Positions 37,891 through 47,693 of a stretch of DNA of 64,000 nt are shown piece after piece. This DNA is from Filimonas lacunae (lineage in GTDB: Bacteria; Bacteroidota; Bacteroidia; Chitinophagales; Chitinophagaceae). The translations under genes and the position numbers were made by a program. The stretch is from positions 2,852,001 to 2,916,000 of the forward strand of contig NZ_AP017422.1 of assembly GCF_002355595.1 (NCBI RefSeq), in the 5' to 3' direction. Below the pieces are notes generated by a model, which saw nothing but the letters and a program-made list of their open reading frames with translations, was not told the origin of the DNA and made no database searches. Each line of letters starts with the position of its first letter. Within the stretch, counting starts at the first letter, position 1.

Positions 37891-39198
37891 ATGCCAACTA
37901 ACGCTTCTGAACTTCAAAAAGTGCTCAGGCCTATCCATATTTGGGCTATTGCTGTGGGGCTGGTGATATCAGGTGAATATTTCGGCTGGAACTATGGGTG
38001 GGGCACTTCTGGTACCGTAGGCTTTTTAATAGCTACCCTTATCATCACCGTACTGTATGTATGTTTCATTTTCAGTTTCACGGAGTTAACTACAGCTGTT
38101 CCGCATGCGGGTGGGCCGTTTGCCTATGCTTACCGGGCTATGGGGCCGCTGGGGGGATTGATTGCAGGGTATGCTTCGTTAATTGAGTTTTTATTTGCAG
38201 CGCCGGCTATTGCCTATGCGTTGGGTAGCTATGTACATTTTTTGTATCCTTCTGTGCCTGTTTTATATACAGCAATTGGTTGTTACATCCTGTTTACTTT
38301 CATAAACCTGCTGGGTATAAAAGAGTCGGCAGTATTTTCTGTAATAGTTACCCTGCTTGCTGTGGTGGAGCTTTTAATATACCTGGGTATTGTGGCCCCT
38401 GCTTTTAAATGGGTAAATTTTATGGCGCATGCTTTACCGGTGCAATGGAGCGGACTGTTTGCGGCTTTGCCGTTTGCCATATGGCTGTATGTGTGTATTG
38501 AAGGAGTGGCTATGGTGGCGGAAGAAGTGCGTGACATTAAAAAGGATATTCCGCGGGGATATATTTCTGGTATTTTAACGTTGACTGTGCTGGCGCTTGC
38601 AGTGATGATTTTTACCGGGGGAATTACAGACTGGAGGTTATTGTCGAATATAGATTATCCTTTACCTGAATCGATAGGTATTGTGTTGGGGAAGAATAGC
38701 AGCATTACCCGGTTGTTTGCGGGTATAGGGTTGTTTGGACTGATTGCTTCGTTTCATAGTATTATTATCAGTTATTCGCGGCAGCTGTTTGCGCTGGGCA
38801 GAAGTAATTTTTTGCCGGCTATACTGGCACGAGTACACAGTCGTTTTAAAACGCCGCACCTCGCTTTGTTTGTGGGTGGCGTATTGGGCCTGCTGGCAAT
38901 ACGATACCTGGATACTCAAAAGCTGGTGATCATTTCTACTCTGGGGGCTGTGGTAATGTATATTACCAGTATGATCAGCCTTTTTGTGCTTCGGGTAAAG
39001 GAGCCGGAATTGCACCGGCCTTTTACAGCGCCGTTGTATCCGTTTATGCCAGCTGTTGCTTTAGTGTTGTCGCTGGTATGCTGTGTAACCATTTGCTGGT
39101 TTTATCCTATGTTAAGTGCTTTGTTTTTTATAGGGCTGGTAATTGTAACAGCCTTGTTTTATCTTACAGGTCGTCATCGTATTCCTTCTATTGTATGA
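37891..39198 (+). CDS. eat: Ethanolamine permease (APC superfamily)
   Basis: The 435-residue protein has about twelve hydrophobic segments. The early WAIAVGLVISGEYFGWNYGW and the PHAGGPFAYAYRAMGPLGG block are typical of the Eat subgroup of amino-acid/polyamine/organocation transporters. Its stop codon overlaps the eutB start (ATGA), which ties it to ethanolamine ammonia-lyase and supports the substrate. It is expected to import ethanolamine across the inner membrane. Confidence 0.92.
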   Translation: MPTNASELQKVLRPIHIWAIAVGLVISGEYFGWNYGWGTSGTVGFLIATLIITVLYVCFIFSFTELTTAVPHAGGPFAYAYRAMGPLGGLIAGYASLIEFLFAAPAIAYALGSYVHFLYPSVPVLYTAIGCYILFTFINLLGIKESAVFSVIVTLLAVVELLIYLGIVAPAFKWVNFMAHALPVQWSGLFAALPFAIWLYVCIEGVAMVAEEVRDIKKDIPRGYISGILTLTVLALAVMIFTGGITDWRLLSNIDYPLPESIGIVLGKNSSITRLFAGIGLFGLIASFHSIIISYSRQLFALGRSNFLPAILARVHSRFKTPHLALFVGGVLGLLAIRYLDTQKLVIISTLGAVVMYITSMISLFVLRVKEPELHRPFTAPLYPFMPAVALVLSLVCCVTICWFYPMLSALFFIGLVIVTALFYLTGRHRIPSIV

Positions 39199-40571
39199 GT
39201 TATAGTTGTACCATAAAACAGCATACTTACCGGTTTCCCAGTCTTACTGTTTTACTGGCTAAAGCCACGCCTTACCGTTCGGGCGATGCACTGGCAGGTG
39301 TTGCAGCAGAGAGTTATGAGGAGCGGGTAGCGGCCCAGATGGCATTGGCAGATGTGCCTTTGAAAGTGTTTTTGCAGGAAGTGCTGGTGCCTTATGAGAA
39401 AGATGAAATTACGCGGTTGATTATAGATACGCACCATGTGGCTGCTTTTGCTATGGTTAGTCACCTTACTGTAGGTGAATTGCGAGATTGGTTGTTGAGT
39501 GACCAGGCTTCTACTGTTGTTTTGCAGCAGCTGGCTCCGGGGCTTACTCCTGAAATGGTGGCTGCTGTAAGTAAACTGATGCGCAATCAGGATTTGATCA
39601 GTGTGGCTAAAAAGTGTGAAGTGGTAACACGTTTTCGTAATACCATTGGTTTGAAGGGGCATCTGGCAGTGCGGTTACAGCCTAATGATCCCTCGGATAG
39701 CCTGACTGGTATTGCTGCCGGTATAATTGACGGTTTACTATATGGCAGTGGAGATGCGGTGATTGGAATTAACCCGGCTACCGACAGTCCGGATATTACC
39801 GCTGCCTTGCTTAACATGCTGGATCAGCTGCGTTTGCGCTTTGATATACCTACACAGAGTTGTGTATTATGCCATATTACTACCACTATAGAAATGGTGA
39901 AACGGAATATGCCGGTTGACCTGGCTTTTCAATCTATTGGTGGAACGGAAAAAACAAATGCCAGCTTTGGGGTAAACCTGGGGGTATTGCAAGAAGGGTA
40001 TGAAGCTACGCTCTCGCTGCAAAGAGGAACCATCGGTAATCAAGTGATGTATTTTGAAACGGGCCAGGGGAGTGCGTTGTCGGCCAATGCTCATGAAGGC
40101 ATGGATCAGCAAACATGTGAAGCAAGGGCCTATGCTGTAGCCAGACATTTCAATCCCTTTTTGGTGAATACGGTGGTAGGATTTATTGGTCCGGAGTATT
40201 TGTTTGATGGCAAACAGATTATCCGCGCAGCTCTGGAAGATCATTTTTGTGGCAAGCTGCTGGGGTTGCCCATGGGGGTAGATGTTTGTTATACGAATCA
40301 TGCCGAGGCTGATCAGGATGATATGGATAATTTACTTACCCTGTTAGGGGTAGCGGGTTGTAATTATATTATGGGCATACCGGGTGCAGATGATGTGATG
40401 TTGAATTATCAGTCGACCTCCTTTCATGATGCATTATATATCAGGAGGGTGCTGGGGCTGCAGCCAGCTCCGGAATTTGCGCAGTGGTTGCTGCAGCAGG
40501 GTATTATGGATGAAAGAGGGAATATGTTACCTGTGCCTGCAGGGCATCGTTTGCTCCAGGGAATAAAATAA
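39195..40571 (+). CDS. eutB: Ethanolamine ammonia-lyase large subunit
   Basis: Adenosylcobalamin-dependent conversion of ethanolamine to acetaldehyde and ammonia; this subunit holds the active-site barrel. The start is ATG 39195 (MSYSCTIKQHTYRFPSL), overlapping the permease stop by 4 bp; the longer frame from 39078 runs inside eat. The 458-residue length is normal. Family blocks include YRSGDALAGVAA, RLQPNDPSDS, GINPATDS, FQSIGGTEKTNASFG and YFETGQGSALSANAH. eutC follows after 8 bp. Confidence 0.95.
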   Translation: MSYSCTIKQHTYRFPSLTVLLAKATPYRSGDALAGVAAESYEERVAAQMALADVPLKVFLQEVLVPYEKDEITRLIIDTHHVAAFAMVSHLTVGELRDWLLSDQASTVVLQQLAPGLTPEMVAAVSKLMRNQDLISVAKKCEVVTRFRNTIGLKGHLAVRLQPNDPSDSLTGIAAGIIDGLLYGSGDAVIGINPATDSPDITAALLNMLDQLRLRFDIPTQSCVLCHITTTIEMVKRNMPVDLAFQSIGGTEKTNASFGVNLGVLQEGYEATLSLQRGTIGNQVMYFETGQGSALSANAHEGMDQQTCEARAYAVARHFNPFLVNTVVGFIGPEYLFDGKQIIRAALEDHFCGKLLGLPMGVDVCYTNHAEADQDDMDNLLTLLGVAGCNYIMGIPGADDVMLNYQSTSFHDALYIRRVLGLQPAPEFAQWLLQQGIMDERGNMLPVPAGHRLLQGIK

Positions 40572-40579
40572 AGCACGGA

Positions 40580-41347
40580 ATGGAAAAGTATACTCAGCCT
40601 ATATGGGAAGATGCCTGGACGGCTTTACGTGCTTACACGAATGCACGTATTGCATTGGGCAGAACGGGAACGGCAATACCGTTGAAAGAAAACCTGTCTT
40701 TCCGGTTGGCGCATGCACATGCCCGTGATGCGGTATATGCCGCTTTGGATATAGAAAACCTGAAGGAAGCATTAGATGTTTTGTCTTTACCGGTGGTGGA
40801 GTTGCAAAGCCAGGCTATGCAACGGCAGCAGTATCTCCAAAGACCCGATTTAGGGCGCAAGTTATCAGCAGACTCTGTTGGTAGTTTACAACAACAGGCG
40901 AATAGCCCTGCACATATTGCTATTATACTGGCAGATGGATTGTCGGCATTGGCTGTGCAGGCGCATGCCAGTAAATTACTACAGCAGTTGGTGCCTTTGT
41001 TGCAAGCCAGTGGATTTAGTTTTACTTCTATAGCCATTGTGCAGCAGGCCCGGGTGGCCATTGGGGATGAAACGGCTGCACTATTGCAGGCGCAGCTGTC
41101 TTTGATGTTAATTGGTGAAAGGCCGGGATTAAGTTCGGCGGATAGCCTGGGAGCCTATATTACTTTTGCCCCCAGGCCAGGCCTTACAGATGAAAGTCGT
41201 AATTGTGTATCTAATATCCGGCCTGAAGGTTTACCTTACCAGCAGGCTGCTTTCAGGATACATTATCTTATTCAGCAAGCTTTTGCATTACAGTTGTCGG
41301 GCGTGCAGCTGAAAGATGACTCTTTATCGCAATTACCCGGTACGTAG
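40580..41347 (+). CDS. eutC: Ethanolamine ammonia-lyase small subunit
   Basis: The 255-residue subunit helps bind cobalamin. It starts with WEDAWTALRAYTNARIALGR, and has RLAHAHARDAVYAAL, SADGLSALAV-type block ILADGLSALAVQAHA and GERPGLSSADSLGAYITFAP. No EutA reactivase, aldehyde dehydrogenase or shell protein follows. The gene ends 9 bp from the convergent end of egtD with no terminator between them, so the two operons' transcripts may overlap. Confidence 0.95.
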   Translation: MEKYTQPIWEDAWTALRAYTNARIALGRTGTAIPLKENLSFRLAHAHARDAVYAALDIENLKEALDVLSLPVVELQSQAMQRQQYLQRPDLGRKLSADSVGSLQQQANSPAHIAIILADGLSALAVQAHASKLLQQLVPLLQASGFSFTSIAIVQQARVAIGDETAALLQAQLSLMLIGERPGLSSADSLGAYITFAPRPGLTDESRNCVSNIRPEGLPYQQAAFRIHYLIQQAFALQLSGVQLKDDSLSQLPGT

Positions 41348-41356
41348 CAGGAGTCT

Positions 41357-42355
41357 TTACACCTGCCATAGATGATCAGCAAACCAGCCTTTACTGTCAG
41401 TGAATTCACACATGTTGGTAAAACCGGATTCGCTGGCCAGGAAATGGATTTCGCTGGTGCTATACTTTTGTGCTATTTCCATATATATAGGCTCGTCTTT
41501 GTTCAGCAGAAAACTTACCTCATTATTAATGCTTACTTCCTGTGCAACCTTACTTATCAGGTAGCTTTTACAAGCGCCTGTGGAGGGATCGTAACAGGGG
41601 TAATGTTCAAACTGGTTGATGGCAAAGTTGCCTTTCAGTTCGCGGTTGATGCGGTGTAATAAATTGAGGTTAAAGGCACGGGTAAAACCTTGTTTGTCGT
41701 TATAGGCATCCAAAATGATCATCGGATGCTTCTTTAAATCAAAACCTATTAATATCAGGTCGCCGGGATTTAACTGGCTGTTGAGCTCGGTACAGAATTG
41801 TGTCGCGGCTTCCGGCTCAAAGTTGCCTATGTTACCTCCTAAAAACAGTACAACCTTCGGCTTTTTAGATAAGGCGGTGGCTTGTTTCAGCATGTTCATA
41901 TAATCGCCATGCAGTCCGTGCATGGAAAGTCCGGGAATACTTTTGGGCAGCTGTTGTTCCAGTTCCAGGAGTATGTTACCGGAAATGTCTACCGGGTAGT
42001 AAGTGAACGATACGTTTTGGTTCACCATTTCCTGTAATAAGTATTTGGATTTGCTGGCGTCTCCTGCTCCTAATTCTATTACGTCATACTCAGGCGGCAG
42101 TAATTCGCTGATAGCATGCACAATGTGGCTGCGTTTGTTCATGAAAATGTCCATTTCGCAGTTGGTAGGATAATATTCGGAACATTGCATAATCTGTTGA
42201 AACAGTGCATCGCCCGCAGCATCATAAAAATACTTTGAGTCCAGATGTTTGTGATAACAACTAAGTCCTGTAACCACATCATCAAAAAATTGCTCACGAA
42301 AAGTAAGCGTACGCTCCAGTCCTTGTGGCGCATTCCCTGAGGTGTTGATTTGCAT
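41357..42355 (-). CDS. egtD: L-histidine N-alpha-methyltransferase
   Basis: SAM-dependent trimethylation of histidine to hercynine, the first step of ergothioneine synthesis. The 332-residue length is close to the mycobacterial enzyme. The N-terminal family block is KYFYDAAGDALFQQI followed by SEYYPTNCE, and the SAM site is IELGAGDASKSK (93-104). It is the last gene of a four-gene minus-strand operon, 21 bp after egtB. An EgtB partner next door makes ergothioneine rather than free hercynine the likely end product, although a C-S lyase (EgtE) is not in the window. Confidence 0.93.
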   Translation of the reverse strand: MQINTSGNAPQGLERTLTFREQFFDDVVTGLSCYHKHLDSKYFYDAAGDALFQQIMQCSEYYPTNCEMDIFMNKRSHIVHAISELLPPEYDVIELGAGDASKSKYLLQEMVNQNVSFTYYPVDISGNILLELEQQLPKSIPGLSMHGLHGDYMNMLKQATALSKKPKVVLFLGGNIGNFEPEAATQFCTELNSQLNPGDLILIGFDLKKHPMIILDAYNDKQGFTRAFNLNLLHRINRELKGNFAINQFEHYPCYDPSTGACKSYLISKVAQEVSINNEVSFLLNKDEPIYMEIAQKYSTSEIHFLASESGFTNMCEFTDSKGWFADHLWQV

Positions 42356-42376: not shown

Positions 42377-43522
42377 TTATTGGGCAAGCCTTACGCCGGT
42401 AAACTGCCAGCGCAGGTGTGGATGAAAAAAGTTTCTGTAGGTGATACGGCTGTGTCCGGGTGGAGTTACATCAGAACTTCCACGCAGTACCATCTGATTT
42501 ACCATAAATTTTCCGTTATACTCTCCGATGGCTCCCGGCGCTTTTACAAAACCCGGATAGGGCAGGTAAGCGCTTTCGGTCCATTCCCATCGACGGCCCC
42601 AATTAAATTGAGTGGCAGCTATTTCCCATTCAAACTCGGTAGGTAATCGCATACCTTTCCAGGCTGCATAGGCAGCTGCTTCGTAGTAACTGATATGTAC
42701 TACCGGCTCGTGTGCATGTAAAGGTTGCAAACCTTGCCAGGTATAGTATTGCCATTCGCCATCCAGCCAATGCCAGTACATGGGGGCTTTTACCTGGTTT
42801 TTCTGTACCCAATCCCAGCCTTCTGAATGCCAGTACCGAAAATCCTGGTAACCTCCACTCTCAATAAAAGCGAGAAAGTCGGCATTGGTTTCAGGCCCTG
42901 ATAAAATAGTAAAGTCCTGTAGGTATACTTTATGGCGGCCTAGTTCATTGTCAAAAGAGAAGCCTTCTCCTGTGTGGCCGATTTCGTAAATACCGGCTTT
43001 GATGGAGATGGGCTCTTTGGTATTATTTATACTGGCTAATTGTGGGCCTTCGCCGTAGGCAGGCATTAATGGATTATGGCCCAGTATGTATTTAATATCA
43101 GTATATAAGAGTTCCTGATGTTGTTCTTCATGGTTCAGACCCAGCAGCACCAGTTGGGTTAATTCGGGCGATAGCTCATAGGTAAGCCACTGCTCCATGG
43201 CGGCATCTACGTATTCGCGGTAGCTATAAATATCAGATACGGAAGGACGGCTTAAATTGCCCCGGTCTGTTCGGATGACTCTTTTGCCTACCGATTCGTA
43301 ATAGCTGTTGAACACGAAGTTGTAGTCTGCATCAAATACCTGGTAGCCTTCGCAATGGGGCATCAGCAGAAATGTTTCAAAAAACCAGGTGGTATGGCCC
43401 AGGTGCCATTTGGGGGGACTTACATCTACCACGGGTTGCACCACATAATCTTCTGTTTTGAGGGGCCTGCAAATAAAGGCAGACCGATCCCTCACCTTTT
43501 TGTACTCGTTTAGCAATTGCAT
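42377..43522 (-). CDS. egtB: Sulfoxide synthase of ergothioneine biosynthesis
   Basis: This non-haem iron enzyme joins hercynine to a cysteine-containing thiol with oxygen. The 381-residue protein has a DinB-like N-terminal bundle with the iron ligands His43 (LGHTTW) and His131/His135 (HEEQHQE), and an FGE-sulfatase C-terminal domain (GMRLPTEFEWEIAA ... WEWTESAYLPYPGF ... RITYRNFFHP). No egtA (gamma-glutamylcysteine) or egtC gene is present nearby, which fits but does not prove the cysteine-using EgtB type. It lies 7 bp after the transporter fusion gene. Confidence 0.93.
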   Translation of the reverse strand: MQLLNEYKKVRDRSAFICRPLKTEDYVVQPVVDVSPPKWHLGHTTWFFETFLLMPHCEGYQVFDADYNFVFNSYYESVGKRVIRTDRGNLSRPSVSDIYSYREYVDAAMEQWLTYELSPELTQLVLLGLNHEEQHQELLYTDIKYILGHNPLMPAYGEGPQLASINNTKEPISIKAGIYEIGHTGEGFSFDNELGRHKVYLQDFTILSGPETNADFLAFIESGGYQDFRYWHSEGWDWVQKNQVKAPMYWHWLDGEWQYYTWQGLQPLHAHEPVVHISYYEAAAYAAWKGMRLPTEFEWEIAATQFNWGRRWEWTESAYLPYPGFVKAPGAIGEYNGKFMVNQMVLRGSSDVTPPGHSRITYRNFFHPHLRWQFTGVRLAQ

Positions 43523-43529
43523 AGGTCTA

Positions 43530-45107
43530 TTATAACATTCTTTGTTTGTCGAGATAATTCTTCAGATCGCTTATTGTACGAACACCTAAAAAGTAACTTT
43601 GTTGTCTTCGCATCATTAAAGCATAGGTATTATTAAACCCAACCGGCTGCATCCATTGTAACCCAAAACGTGCCGAAAATTCACGGGCTACGTAATTATA
43701 TACTTTATCAGGATAAGGCATCAGGCTGTCGGAAATAGCGGGAGGTGTTTTTAGTAATACCAGCAGGCCGGTTCCTGTGTATTCGGGATACAGATCTATC
43801 TGGTGATTGACTAAAGCATCAAAACAAATCTGGGTTCCTCCCAGTCCTGTTTTGGTAACAGCTTCGAGCTGCGTGTAGCCTTCAATCAACATTTTGTACA
43901 TGGGAGCCAATACATAACCATCCCCAAACATTTTAGCTCCTATGATCACCTGGCCATTCCTTTGGCCGGCGGCTGGGCGGTATAATCCGGAAGTGATTAA
44001 AAAGTCTTTGGCTACTTTTTCCGGGTCTTCTTTTTTGTAGTCTACCCGGTAATTCATGGCAGTCATCAATGAGTCGTTGATTTTGCCAGCCAGTTTATTG
44101 AGTACCGGTTCCAGCGTCGGATAACGCTCTAACGTGGTTTTGTTGACCAGCGGGGCGGCATAATATGGAGGAAAGATGTGTTTGTCGTCTGCCAAAGCAA
44201 CCAGGTCGTAGGCTTGCACTCTGCCATCAGTGGTGCTGCCGCTGATAACGTCCAGCTGTTTTTCGCCTGCCGCTTTGTACATGATCATGTCGTTGATAAC
44301 CACGGTGCGTACATCCATACCGTACACTTTGCGCAGTCCTAAATAGCCATCATAGCGACCCATGAATTCGGGAGTAAACCCTACCAGCAGTTTGCCGGAT
44401 GCGGTTGCCGGAGCCAGGTAAAGCAGGGATAACAGTATGATGACCAGGGGCATAGAGAATGTCACATAGCGCATTTTTTTCATGTTAAGTCGCTGCACAC
44501 GGGAAAGCAACCAATCCAATAACAGGGCTAACAAGGCGGCTGGAATAGCCCCTGCGAGTATCATGTTTTTATTGTTGAGTGCAATGCCCCCAAATATAAA
44601 CTCGCCCAGGCCACCGGCGGCTATATATGCTGCAAGGGTGGCTACGCCTACGGTAATTACAGTGGCTGTTCTTATGCCTGCCAGTATTACGGGCATGGCC
44701 AGTGGAAGTTGTACTTTCCATAATACCTGGCGATTGGTCATGCCAACTGCATAGGCTGATTCCAGCACAGCAGCATTTATAGAAGTAAGGCCGGTATAGG
44801 TGTTACGGATGATGGGCAACAGTGCATAAAGGAACAAGGCGGCAATGGCTGGTTTGGCTCCTATGCCCAGTAAAGGAATCATAAAACCGAGCAGGGCAAT
44901 GCTGGGTACGGTTTGTAGTACGCCGGCAATGCCCAGTGTGGCGCCGGCGAGTTTGGGTTTTCTGCTTATCAGTATACCTAAAACAACACCAGCAATAATG
45001 GCTAGCAGTAATGCTACGGCTGTAAGGCCTATATGCATTACGGTTTGCTCCAGGATTTTAGTTTTCTGCTGTTGCACAAAAGCCCATAAGGAAAGTTGTT
45101 CATCCAT
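43530..45107 (-). CDS. egtU: ABC permease fused to a (circularly permuted) OpuC/EgtU-type binding domain
   Basis: Start at 45107 (MDEQLSLWAF), overlapping the ATPase stop by 8 bp; 525 residues. Residues 20-200 form the permease with the EAA-type loop ESAYAVGMTNRQVLWKV. A further hydrophobic helix (about 217-235) leads into the binding domain. Within it the block normally at the C-terminal half (TPEF, RYDGY, STTDGR, FPPYYAAPLV, ERYP, KVAKDFL; residues ~238-376) comes first. The normally N-terminal half (VIIGAKMFGDGYVLAPMY, GLGGTQ, DLYPEYTGTG, GFNNTYA; ~386-525) comes last. In the operon with egtB/egtD it likely transports ergothioneine or a relative; choline/betaine-type substrates are the alternative. 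The symbol is an inference. Confidence 0.8.
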   Translation of the reverse strand: MDEQLSLWAFVQQQKTKILEQTVMHIGLTAVALLLAIIAGVVLGILISRKPKLAGATLGIAGVLQTVPSIALLGFMIPLLGIGAKPAIAALFLYALLPIIRNTYTGLTSINAAVLESAYAVGMTNRQVLWKVQLPLAMPVILAGIRTATVITVGVATLAAYIAAGGLGEFIFGGIALNNKNMILAGAIPAALLALLLDWLLSRVQRLNMKKMRYVTFSMPLVIILLSLLYLAPATASGKLLVGFTPEFMGRYDGYLGLRKVYGMDVRTVVINDMIMYKAAGEKQLDVISGSTTDGRVQAYDLVALADDKHIFPPYYAAPLVNKTTLERYPTLEPVLNKLAGKINDSLMTAMNYRVDYKKEDPEKVAKDFLITSGLYRPAAGQRNGQVIIGAKMFGDGYVLAPMYKMLIEGYTQLEAVTKTGLGGTQICFDALVNHQIDLYPEYTGTGLLVLLKTPPAISDSLMPYPDKVYNYVAREFSARFGLQWMQPVGFNNTYALMMRRQQSYFLGVRTISDLKNYLDKQRML

Positions 45108-46074
45108 GTGTTGTTTTGTACTCCGTTTTAAAATGATGAATGGCGTCAATGATGTGTGTTTTATCAACGACGCAACAGTTGTTTCCTGTTTTTATGAGCA
45201 ACTTTTCCTGGCCTTGTGTTAGCCATTCCAATGCTTTCCAGCAACTGTCGCTGCTGGAAATAACAGGGATGTTATCTTGTTCATTATCAGTTTGTAATGG
45301 CAGCCACTTCTCAATGTTTTTCAGTGGAATTACCTGCCACTCCAATAGTGTACGGTGGCTATCGAAAAAGCTTCGGACAAAATCGTTTGCCGGAGCAAAC
45401 AGCAATTCGGCGGGCGTGCCTAGCTGCACTATTTTGCCTTCGTGCATCAGGCATATGCGGTTGCCCATGCAAAAGGCTTCTTCCATATCATGGGTTACCA
45501 TTATTATCGTTTTTTTTGTGGATGCTTCCAATTCCATAAAATCATTACGAACATGTAGCCGGGTAGCTGGATCAAGTGCGCCAAAGGGTTCGTCCATTAA
45601 TAATATGGATGGATTGCCAGCCATAGCCCTGGCCAGTCCCACACGTTGTTGCTGTCCACCGCTGAGTTCATGGGCATATTTATGTGCATAGTTGGCAACA
45701 GGTAAGTGAAGTTGGTTCATCAGTGTGTGTACCCTTTGTTGTATATCTTTGGATTTCCAGCCGAGCAATGTAGGCACGATGCCTATATTTTGCTCAATGG
45801 TGTAATGCGGAAACAAACCTGGTTGTTGCATTACATAACCAATGCCTTTACGTAGTTCTGCAGGTGGAATGGCTGATATGGGCTTGTTGTGAATGTGAAT
45901 TTCACCGGCATCGGGTTGGATAAGACGATTGATCATGCGCAGTGTAGTGGTTTTGCCACATCCGCTGGTGCCTAATAGAACCATTGTTTCCCCTTCTTTA
46001 ACAGTCAGGGAAAGCGAATCCACTGCAAGATGGTCGTTTTCAAAACGTTTTGTTACCTGGGAAAGAGAAACCAT
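45100..46074 (-). CDS. egtV: ABC transporter ATP-binding protein (OpuCA/EgtV type)
   Basis: The 324-residue ATPase has Walker A GTSGCGKTT (about 34-42), Q-loop YVMQQPGLFP, signature LSGGQQQRVGLA and Walker B ILLMDEPFGALDP, then an H-loop in THDMEEAF. The C-terminal ~75 residues form a short accessory domain resembling a single CBS-like repeat, as in quaternary-amine transporters. It is the first gene of the operon that continues with the permease/binding fusion, egtB and egtD. It powers that importer. The substrate assignment rests on this context. Confidence 0.85.
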   Translation of the reverse strand: MVSLSQVTKRFENDHLAVDSLSLTVKEGETMVLLGTSGCGKTTTLRMINRLIQPDAGEIHIHNKPISAIPPAELRKGIGYVMQQPGLFPHYTIEQNIGIVPTLLGWKSKDIQQRVHTLMNQLHLPVANYAHKYAHELSGGQQQRVGLARAMAGNPSILLMDEPFGALDPATRLHVRNDFMELEASTKKTIIMVTHDMEEAFCMGNRICLMHEGKIVQLGTPAELLFAPANDFVRSFFDSHRTLLEWQVIPLKNIEKWLPLQTDNEQDNIPVISSSDSCWKALEWLTQGQEKLLIKTGNNCCVVDKTHIIDAIHHFKTEYKTTHG

Positions 46075-46189: not shown

Positions 46190-47575
46190 CTATTGCGGCT
46201 CCTGCATAAAGAGGTTGTTGACAGATTCTGCATACAGCGGATGTGCAAACATCTGGTAACGCAGATCTTCACAGGTCATGCCGGCCAACATGGCCATTTG
46301 CAATACGGTAATGGTTTCACCTCCTTGTTCCCCGATAATAGTGGCTCCTAAAATCTTACCTGTTTCTTTATGAACTACCGCTTTCATTATTCCCTGGGTT
46401 TGACCTGATTCTATAGCTCGGGCTACTTTGGTCATAGGGAGGGTATAAACATTTATGGGCAGATTTTGGGTGCGGGCTTCCTTTTCTGTAATGCCTACCC
46501 GGCCTAATTGCGGATCGGTAAACATACAATAAGGTATTATCCGGTTATTTGTATTTAATCCTTTATTTTCCAGTAAGTTGCGAAGTATAATTACATAATC
46601 ATTGTAGGAGACATGTGTAAAGGCCGGACCTCCTTTAATATCTCCCAATGCATAAATGCCGGAAATGTTGGTTTGTAAATTGGAATTGATCTTTATAAAT
46701 CCTTCATTATCAATATCTAGTCTGGTCATTTGTGTACACAGTGTGTCTGTGTTGGGTGTACGACCTAATGCCAGTAACAAATGGCTGCCTAATATTATTT
46801 CGGGATGATGTTTTTTATCCAGGAACACGGCTACTCCACCTGTAATATGTTTTTCAACATTGTGTACGTTGGCGTGGGTATATACTGCAATTCCTTCATC
46901 ACGAAGTATATCTTTAATACAAGCTGAAATGTCTGCGTCCTCTTTGGGTAATAAGTAAGGAGAACGTTCTATGATACTTACCCGGCTGCCTAAACGGCTA
47001 AACAGCTGCGCCATTTCCAGGGCGATATAGCTTCCACCCAGTATAACAAGGTGTGCCGGAATCTGTGGCAATTCTAGCAGGGTAGTAGAGGTGAGGTAAG
47101 GGGTAACGGATAAGCCGGTTATCTCGGGAATCGCTGGCCTGGCTCCTGCATTGATGTAGATACTTTCTGCCTGGTAGGTTTCTGTTTGTCCATCCGGTGT
47201 TTTTACCTGTATGGCTTTATGTCCGATAAAGGATGCTTCCCCTATAAGAAGTTCCAGGCCTTCAGTAGCTTCTACTCCCCGTACAGATGAATCGCGGAAT
47301 TGATTGACAATCTTATTTTTATGCTGCCATATGGTTTCGAAGTCAATGCTCATGCCGGGTGTATGTATACCCCATTGCTCGCTTTTTCTTACCCGTTGGG
47401 CTATAGCTGCATGTGCAATCATATTTTTAGTGGGCGTGCAACCATCGTTGATGCAAGTACCACCCACCCATCTTTTTTCTACCAATAAAGTTTTATAACC
47501 TGCTTTTGCCAGCTTTTTTGCCAGCGGAGTGCCACCCTGGCCAGCGCCAATTACAATAGCATCCAGTGTTTTCAT
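46190..47575 (-). CDS. FAD/NAD(P)-dependent thiol-disulfide oxidoreductase
   Basis: Start at 47575 (MKTLDAIVIGAGQGG) because the FAD-binding Rossmann motif follows at once. The 461-residue protein belongs to the glutathione reductase/mercuric reductase/lipoamide dehydrogenase superfamily. It has the redox-active GGTCINDGC (Cys-x4-Cys), NAD motif LGGSYIALEMA, FAD site YALGDIKGG, and the C-terminal HPLYAE bearing the His-Glu dyad. It lacks an N-terminal heavy-metal domain, so mercury reduction is unlikely. It lies 115 bp upstream of the egt transporter ATPase on the same strand, which hints at reduction of a small-molecule disulfide such as oxidised ergothioneine. This is inference. Confidence 0.8.
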   Translation of the reverse strand: MKTLDAIVIGAGQGGTPLAKKLAKAGYKTLLVEKRWVGGTCINDGCTPTKNMIAHAAIAQRVRKSEQWGIHTPGMSIDFETIWQHKNKIVNQFRDSSVRGVEATEGLELLIGEASFIGHKAIQVKTPDGQTETYQAESIYINAGARPAIPEITGLSVTPYLTSTTLLELPQIPAHLVILGGSYIALEMAQLFSRLGSRVSIIERSPYLLPKEDADISACIKDILRDEGIAVYTHANVHNVEKHITGGVAVFLDKKHHPEIILGSHLLLALGRTPNTDTLCTQMTRLDIDNEGFIKINSNLQTNISGIYALGDIKGGPAFTHVSYNDYVIILRNLLENKGLNTNNRIIPYCMFTDPQLGRVGITEKEARTQNLPINVYTLPMTKVARAIESGQTQGIMKAVVHKETGKILGATIIGEQGGETITVLQMAMLAGMTCEDLRYQMFAHPLYAESVNNLFMQEPQ

Positions 47576-47693
47576 ATGGGAGTCATTTGAATTAAAAAGC
47601 AATCATGGTCAAAATACATACCATTCGCTTTGTGAGCAGATTATACTTCATGGCATCATTTTATTTACATCTTATTACATAAAAGTATAACTT

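Follow-up and report, generated by a model that had tools for sequence, protein, structure and literature searches.

Predicted circular permutation of a permease-fused substrate-binding domain encoded beside egtB and egtD in Filimonas lacunae

A stretch of 64,000 nucleotides of the Filimonas lacunae genome (contig NZ_AP017422.1, positions 2,852,001 to 2,916,000; here called the window) carries a gene in which a transmembrane permease domain (TMD) is fused to a substrate-binding domain (SBD) whose two halves are encoded in reversed order. On the evidence of profile matches and of a predicted structure, this SBD is almost certainly circularly permuted at the boundary between its halves. Taken together, the results probably describe an importer of the OpuA/EgtU type with a tethered SBD permuted at the half boundary, the permutation having a single, separate origin, and with ergothioneine or hercynine as the most likely substrate.

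Order of the halves in the fusion protein

The gene and the parts of its product are the following.

43530..45107, minus strand: permease-SBD fusion gene, order TMD, half 2, half 1; 525 amino acids from the ATG at 45107
44484..45107, minus strand: permease core, residues 1-208 (BPD_transp_1; PF00528 match at 38-213; helices in the AlphaFold2 model)
44403..44483, minus strand: extra C-terminal transmembrane helix carrying the SBD, residues 209-235 (helix 209-235 in the AlphaFold2 model)
Residues 236-241, minus strand: tether of about six residues after the extra helix, the first strand starting at 242
43977..44399, minus strand: second half of the SBD (the canonical C-terminal half), residues 237-377, from phmmer and profile matches
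43953..43976, minus strand: linker joining the halves, residues 378-385
43542..43952, minus strand: first half of the SBD (the canonical N-terminal half), residues 386-522, from phmmer and profile matches

The listing of open reading frames contains an alternative upstream start, a TTG at 45167. A hydrophobic stretch covers residues 212-242, and the pLDDT of the full-length AlphaFold2 model falls below 50 at residues 235-238. The protein has the layout of an OpuA-type fusion importer, with TMD, anchoring helix and C-terminal SBD in one chain and the ATPase encoded by a separate gene, and is very probably the membrane-spanning component of an ABC importer resembling OpuA and EgtU. A search of the F. 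lacunae genome for another OpuAC-family protein returned the fusion protein as the sole match.

The original prediction had placed the second half (about residues 238-376) directly after the transmembrane helix and the first half (about 386-525) at the end of the protein. Both the order and the boundaries were borne out by phmmer, profile and swap analyses. In the comparison with solved structures by phmmer, residues 237-376 of the fusion protein aligned with residues 136-275 of the EgtUC chain (9egi; i-E 3.1e-29) and residues 386-517 with residues 7-134 of the same chain (i-E 4.3e-19). The half order was reversed in all four alignments listed, and in the one with 6uru the first half was further broken into two pieces. 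The Pfam OpuAC profile (PF04069) matched with 172.1 bits, above its gathering threshold of 21.2, and not collinearly: residues 239-370 corresponded to profile positions 114-255, and the next stretch downstream to positions 2-113.

A control profile built from 18 canonical-order binding domains of several phyla was matched in two stretches and in reversed order by all of the 104 window-type loci, which encode 101 distinct proteins and 80 of which were chosen by similarity to the window. The gap separating the two half profiles was 9-16 residues (median 10) in these loci. After the halves had been swapped in silico, a single full-length match was obtained in 104 of 104 loci, the score of the window SBD rising from 275.0 to 283.8 bits; the shuffled window domain matched this profile in 0 of 100 trials. 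The permuted order lies within one open frame in all 104 loci. An assembly error, a frameshift or a local rearrangement misordering the halves in one genome has a negligible probability, since the same order is found in one frame in 101 distinct proteins from many genomes, and since the F. lacunae genome is a single contig, 99.97% complete. This artefact was rejected on the strength of the independent genomes.

AlphaFold2 models were built as monomers on 24-25 sequences. The full-length protein gave a pLDDT of 86.4 and a pTM of 0.73, and the SBD alone (pLDDT 92.8, pTM 0.89) was modelled as one confident domain; the two halves are thus predicted to refold as one ordinary binding domain. The SBD model was compared with known structures by Foldseek, whose alignments are order-dependent, and the best 50 of 1534 matches were listed. 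Ranks 1-5 were occupied by chains of Bacillus subtilis OpuAC, aligned over 298-302 columns at 14% identity with TM-scores of 0.61-0.64 by query and 0.66-0.70 by target, and among these best 50 only B. subtilis OpuAC combined a full-length alignment with a TM-score above 0.6. The pneumococcal EgtUC chains, 39-40% identical, were aligned over 135-143 columns, that is, over one half, with TM-scores of 0.43-0.48. AfProX (3mam), Helicobacter pylori EgtU (8dp6) and OpuBC (6eyl) were aligned over more than 300 columns with an rmsd of 8-9 and TM-scores of 0.40-0.43, as was 5nxy (more than 300 columns, rmsd 8-9, TM-scores 0.42-0.44), an entry whose title reads OpuAC in the Foldseek listing and OpuCC in the phmmer listing. 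Such a pattern is expected if the SBD model and OpuAC share an order that is absent from the others. The full-length model had canonical OpuA (7AHD) as its top match, over 544 columns but with an rmsd of 9.0. The reading of the SBD as a circular permutant is therefore supported by sequence profiles, by single-frame conservation in 104 loci and by comparison of predicted and known structures.

An arrangement in which the halves pair between the two protomers of a dimer, as in a domain swap, instead of within one chain, would be favored by the short loop that joins the halves and by the closeness of the two SBDs in OpuA (PMC11065425). This arrangement is improbable: the monomer model, while compatible with a swap as any monomer prediction would be, is confident (pTM 0.89), and the same-order OpuAC of B. 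subtilis crystallizes as a ligand-binding protein according to the titles of its structures.

Distribution and origin of the permuted order

The original prediction had asked whether the permuted order is clade-wide. The homologue search found it in 104 of 104 homologous loci, kept in a lineage of Bacteroidota. Full-length collinear matches occurred in 22 of 395 sampled Bacteroidota genomes, F. lacunae included, belonging to seven families. A sample of 40 Chitinophagaceae genomes contained five in which a single frame encodes both halves and a sixth with a first-half match at a contig end. Named hosts of the permuted form include Filimonas, Chitinophaga, Mucilaginibacter, Pedobacter and Dyadobacter; identity to the window protein was 48-67% in alignment A1 and 61-73%, for the best segment, in the 80 named loci. 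One permuted homologue (L009, genome G080) has an in-frame TAA near codon 50 and may be a pseudogene or contain a sequence error; it is counted among the 22 genomes and stands outside the alignments, the trees and the 104 loci.

Three other architectures were met in the survey. The canonical SBD lies at the N-terminus (half 1, half 2, permease) in 29 Bacteroidota loci (L142-L170), a count that leaves out the two further candidates G195 and G199, and in a Gemmatirosa plasmid locus (L126). The order permease, half 1, half 2 was found in seven plasmid loci, and separate permease and SBD genes in seven loci. Phyla other than Bacteroidota were covered through plasmid records alone; a junction query against these records gave 288 matches, and the 25 listed all needed two pieces and included no permuted case. 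Duplicates, fragments and weak matches (L001, L012-L030, L033 and L036-L045) were left out of the survey, L012-L030 being replaced by longer stretches of the identical places. At positions 2794-3510 of L130, PLSDB predicts an AAC(3) resistance gene at the exact coordinates of an annotated ABC permease, which is probably a mislabel.

Circular permutation as such is already known among binding proteins; what is new is an instance that is fused to a permease and apparently independent. The glycine-betaine binding proteins 2B4L, 1R9L and 1SW1 were related by circular permutation with CPSARST in 2008 (PMC2395249), and the glucose-binding lipoprotein TpMglB-2 (Tp0684) was described in 2016 as circularly permuted and proposed as Type Ic / Cluster Bc (PMC4990184). 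The latter is likewise a natural permutant and a tethered binding protein. It differs from the window protein in having a Type I / cluster B sugar-binding fold and in being a lipoprotein, a permease fusion not being mentioned in the parts of the source that concern it (PMC4990184). A literature search in CC-licensed papers found no permuted EgtU-like domain.

B. subtilis OpuAC (2B4L), a precedent left unmentioned in the original prediction, shows the same permutation at the same boundary. Relative to OpuAC of Lactococcus lactis, its residues 1-148 correspond to chain residues 107-255 and its residues 156-256 to chain residues 3-102, the B. subtilis numbers following the query sequence as typed. 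The cut point is common to both permuted domains, after the TISDL segment in the window SBD and after NSIEDL in OpuAC. The two proteins differ in that OpuAC is a separate, lipid-anchored protein (PMC2861598), belongs to a group binding glycine betaine through Trp side chains (PMC9732360) and is only 17.3% identical to the window SBD.

A permutation event shared with B. subtilis OpuAC by common descent would account for the identical cut point and for the rank of OpuAC as best structural match of the SBD model, a rank that follows from the order-dependence of the alignment. Such a shared event is nevertheless very improbable. The five canonical-order relatives compared are 34.4-41.3% identical to the window SBD, against the 17.3% of OpuAC, and between OpuAC and its unpermuted L. 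lactis counterpart the identity is 46.8%. These two OpuAC proteins were split from all others in the SBD tree with a support of 1.0 and a branch length of 2.87, so that the fusion SBD showed no close kinship to OpuAC. Moreover, 2B4L is not among the matches given by the permuted-family profile at E values up to 1. With high probability, then, the permutation in the window arose separately from that of B. subtilis OpuAC, an estimate that derives mainly from sequence identity.

The trees were calculated with FastTree and the supports taken from unrooted trees; 15 of the 80 named loci entered the larger-set trees and one (L046) the smaller SBD tree. The permuted Bacteroidota SBDs formed a clade with supports of 0.984 (14 members) and 0.949 (39 members, larger set). 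A split of the larger set, supported at 0.826, united them with the canonical C-terminal fusions and two separate-gene proteins. The smaller SBD tree resolved the canonical domains poorly. The permease tree does not back one permuted clade: the 39 permuted permeases form no split, the 38 remaining without L138 have a support of 0.0, and the L138 permease groups with the N-terminal fusions at 0.857. The L138 protein (genome G128), with its SBD inside the permuted clade and its permease among the N-terminal fusions, may reflect domain shuffling or weak signal.

A single origin within the Bacteroidota lineage would probably have proceeded by tandem duplication of the SBD followed by loss of the outer halves. 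The spacing between TMD and SBD has a median of 31 in the permuted proteins (n=104) and of 34 in the canonical C-terminal fusions (n=7), and this similarity suggests derivation from the permease-half 1-half 2 form. Intermediates with two tandem SBDs or an extra half were absent from the surveyed open reading frames, and a search for a further copy of a half at a distance of over 600 bases from the principal one gave none in the loci covered. Direct repeats sought inside the fusion gene were limited to one 15-nt pair within the permease part, which is uninformative.

Neighbouring genes, ligand site and putative substrate

The genes flanking the fusion gene are the following.

46190..47602, minus strand: FAD disulfide oxidoreductase (Pyr_redox_2 and Pyr_redox_dim; best NCBIfam PRK06370.1-4, below cut-off)
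45100..46074, minus strand: ATPase subunit (ABC_tran; best NCBIfam model proV, 291.3 bits, below the cut-off of 326.6)
42377..43522, minus strand: EgtB, ergothioneine synthesis (TIGR03440, 534.1 bits, cut-off 360)
41357..42355, minus strand: EgtD-like histidine methyltransferase (PF10017, 5e-97; TIGR03438, 284.2 bits, just below the cut-off of 290.9)

The ATPase gene overlaps the fusion gene by 8 bases, the EgtB gene lies 7 bases downstream of the fusion gene and the EgtD-like gene 21 bases past EgtB. The oxidoreductase gene, 115 bases upstream of the ATPase gene, possibly belongs to the same operon as the ATPase and fusion genes, and the five together form an operon-like run. The ethanolamine ammonia-lyase genes eutB and eutC lie at 39078-41347 on the plus strand, convergent with the operon.

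The order ATPase, permease, half 2, half 1, EgtB, EgtD is kept in 75 of the 80 named relatives, which were chosen by similarity, and in 63 of the 80 the oxidoreductase gene precedes these genes on their strand. Three of the exceptions (L082, L085, L087) lie on short contigs, 3.4-3.9 kb, with one end of the gene run truncated. In L063 (5.3 kb) the genes egtD and egtB are found on the opposite strand, and the 13.5 kb of L109 contain neither of them. In the phylum sample, 16 of 22 permuted genes have egtB or egtD nearby, some of the EgtD matches being 36-37% identical and up to about 4 kb away, and the flanks read around the other 6 contain no match to either. L007 and L011 have EgtB ahead of the ATPase, and in L131 EgtD lies upstream and EgtB downstream. 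The Bacteroidota fusions with an N-terminal SBD comprise the same domain families and have egtB and egtD nearby in 6 of 29 cases; they differ from the window protein in the position of the SBD and in its canonical order. The canonical permease-SBD fusions L171, L172 and L173 of Lactobacillaceae likewise have an annotated NAD(P)/FAD oxidoreductase in their neighbourhood, which recalls the oxidoreductase of the window.

The cage residues and carboxylate contacts of EgtUC are known (PMC9732360). Residues K392, T425, Y443, T446, N493, Y495, E247, R251, D253 and Y315 of the fusion protein are identical in 104 of 104 loci, which indicates that most of the site survived the swap; the EgtU residues K242, T275, T296, N339, Y341, E375, R379 and Y443 are matched in the window and in all 104 loci. 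Three EgtU markers are replaced in the window, G244 by F394, F293 by Y443 and Y337 by F491, and the corresponding positions hold F or Q, Y and F throughout the 104 loci. F, Y and F are also found at these positions in the glycine-betaine binder AfProX (PMC9732360). Of the 104 loci, 80 keep the EgtU cage tyrosine Y419 and 24 have Ser in its place, as does the window. This position varies together with two others, the codons being the following.

44235-44237, minus strand: residue 291
43917-43922, minus strand: residues 396-397

S291 occurs with D396-G397 in 24 of the 104 loci, which form the subclade of the window, and Y291 with E396-Q397 in 80, with no mixed case, and this coupled change of the pocket may represent one ancestral event.

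A close known counterpart is the ergothioneine importer EgtU of Streptococcus pneumoniae (EgtUBC), which likewise has TMD and SBD in one chain and a Tyr-cage cluster F-III fold, and most of whose ligand residues are kept in the fusion protein. The two differ in the half order, canonical in EgtU, and at G244, F293 and Y337; an egtB/egtD operon is not described in the available text on EgtU. With the three markers absent, the substrate is inferred from the neighbouring genes. As the fusion gene adjoins those of EgtB and EgtD, ergothioneine or its precursor hercynine is the most likely main substrate, with about an even chance of being correct. Import of glycine betaine, choline or another osmolyte, the link with egtB and egtD then reflecting stress physiology, has a smaller though appreciable probability. 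It would agree with the AfProX-like residues at the three marker positions and with the permuted loci devoid of egtB and egtD, but fits less well with the egtB-egtD gene order of 75 of 80 named loci and with the presence of egtB or egtD beside 16 of the 22 permuted genes from that sample of the phylum. It is also weakened by work on H. pylori, according to which some EgtU homologues outside the SpEgtU group aid ergothioneine uptake, with lower affinity (PMC9732360).

Tethering, docking and significance of the permutation

The original prediction expected the swap to shift the ligand cleft against the permease; the change that can be read from the sequence concerns the tethered lobe. The permease pair of such an importer is two-fold symmetric, and therefore the cleft of the permuted SBD could still face the pore. 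Since the other lobe is anchored, the permutation may alter the pairing of lobes with permease copies during docking (cis or trans), without necessarily altering the cleft. EgtUC has a lobe D1, formed by residues 233-331 and 445-506, and a lobe D2, formed by residues 341-432 (PMC9732360), and from these limits canonical C-terminal fusions tether D1. The tethered lobe of the fusion protein, as read from the amino acid sequence, is D2 instead, the chain entering the D2 half about six residues past the anchoring helix in the AlphaFold2 model. OpuA has a tether of eleven residues, and the two lobes of its docked SBD contact different permease copies (PMC11065425). L. lactis OpuA (7AHC/7AHD) resembles the fusion protein in combining permease, anchoring helix and SBD within a single chain, and differs from it in its canonical order and in its distant SBD (18.7% identity).

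A mechanism may be proposed on this basis. A loop of some ten residues would connect what were once the N- and C-terminal parts of lobe D1, the tether now being on D2. The SBD would bind a trimethylammonium compound in a largely kept cage, dock so that its two lobes rest on different permease copies, and hand over the substrate, most likely ergothioneine (by recapture or uptake) or hercynine. It is tempting to speculate, although we consider it rather doubtful, that an independent permutation in a permease-fused receptor shifts the lobe-permease pairing (cis/trans) and that the coupled pocket switch marks a change of ligand within an operon for synthesis plus recapture.

Natural circular permutants let one ask whether the order of the chain matters for folding and function, and here canonical EgtU and OpuA offer a comparison by which the part played by the tethered lobe in docking can be tested, along with the published link between permutation and anchoring. 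If the interpretation is true, the fusion protein would be a third membrane-tethered permuted binding protein, beside the lipid-anchored OpuAC and the tethered TpMglB-2, and would fit the suggestion of the authors of the TpMglB-2 study that such a topology may represent an adaptation to being anchored (PMC4990184). The permuted order let a distant permutant outrank much closer relatives in an order-dependent search, an effect that may mislead annotation. Finally, the arrangement of the genes suggests that bacteria which make ergothioneine retain an importer for it or for a related compound.
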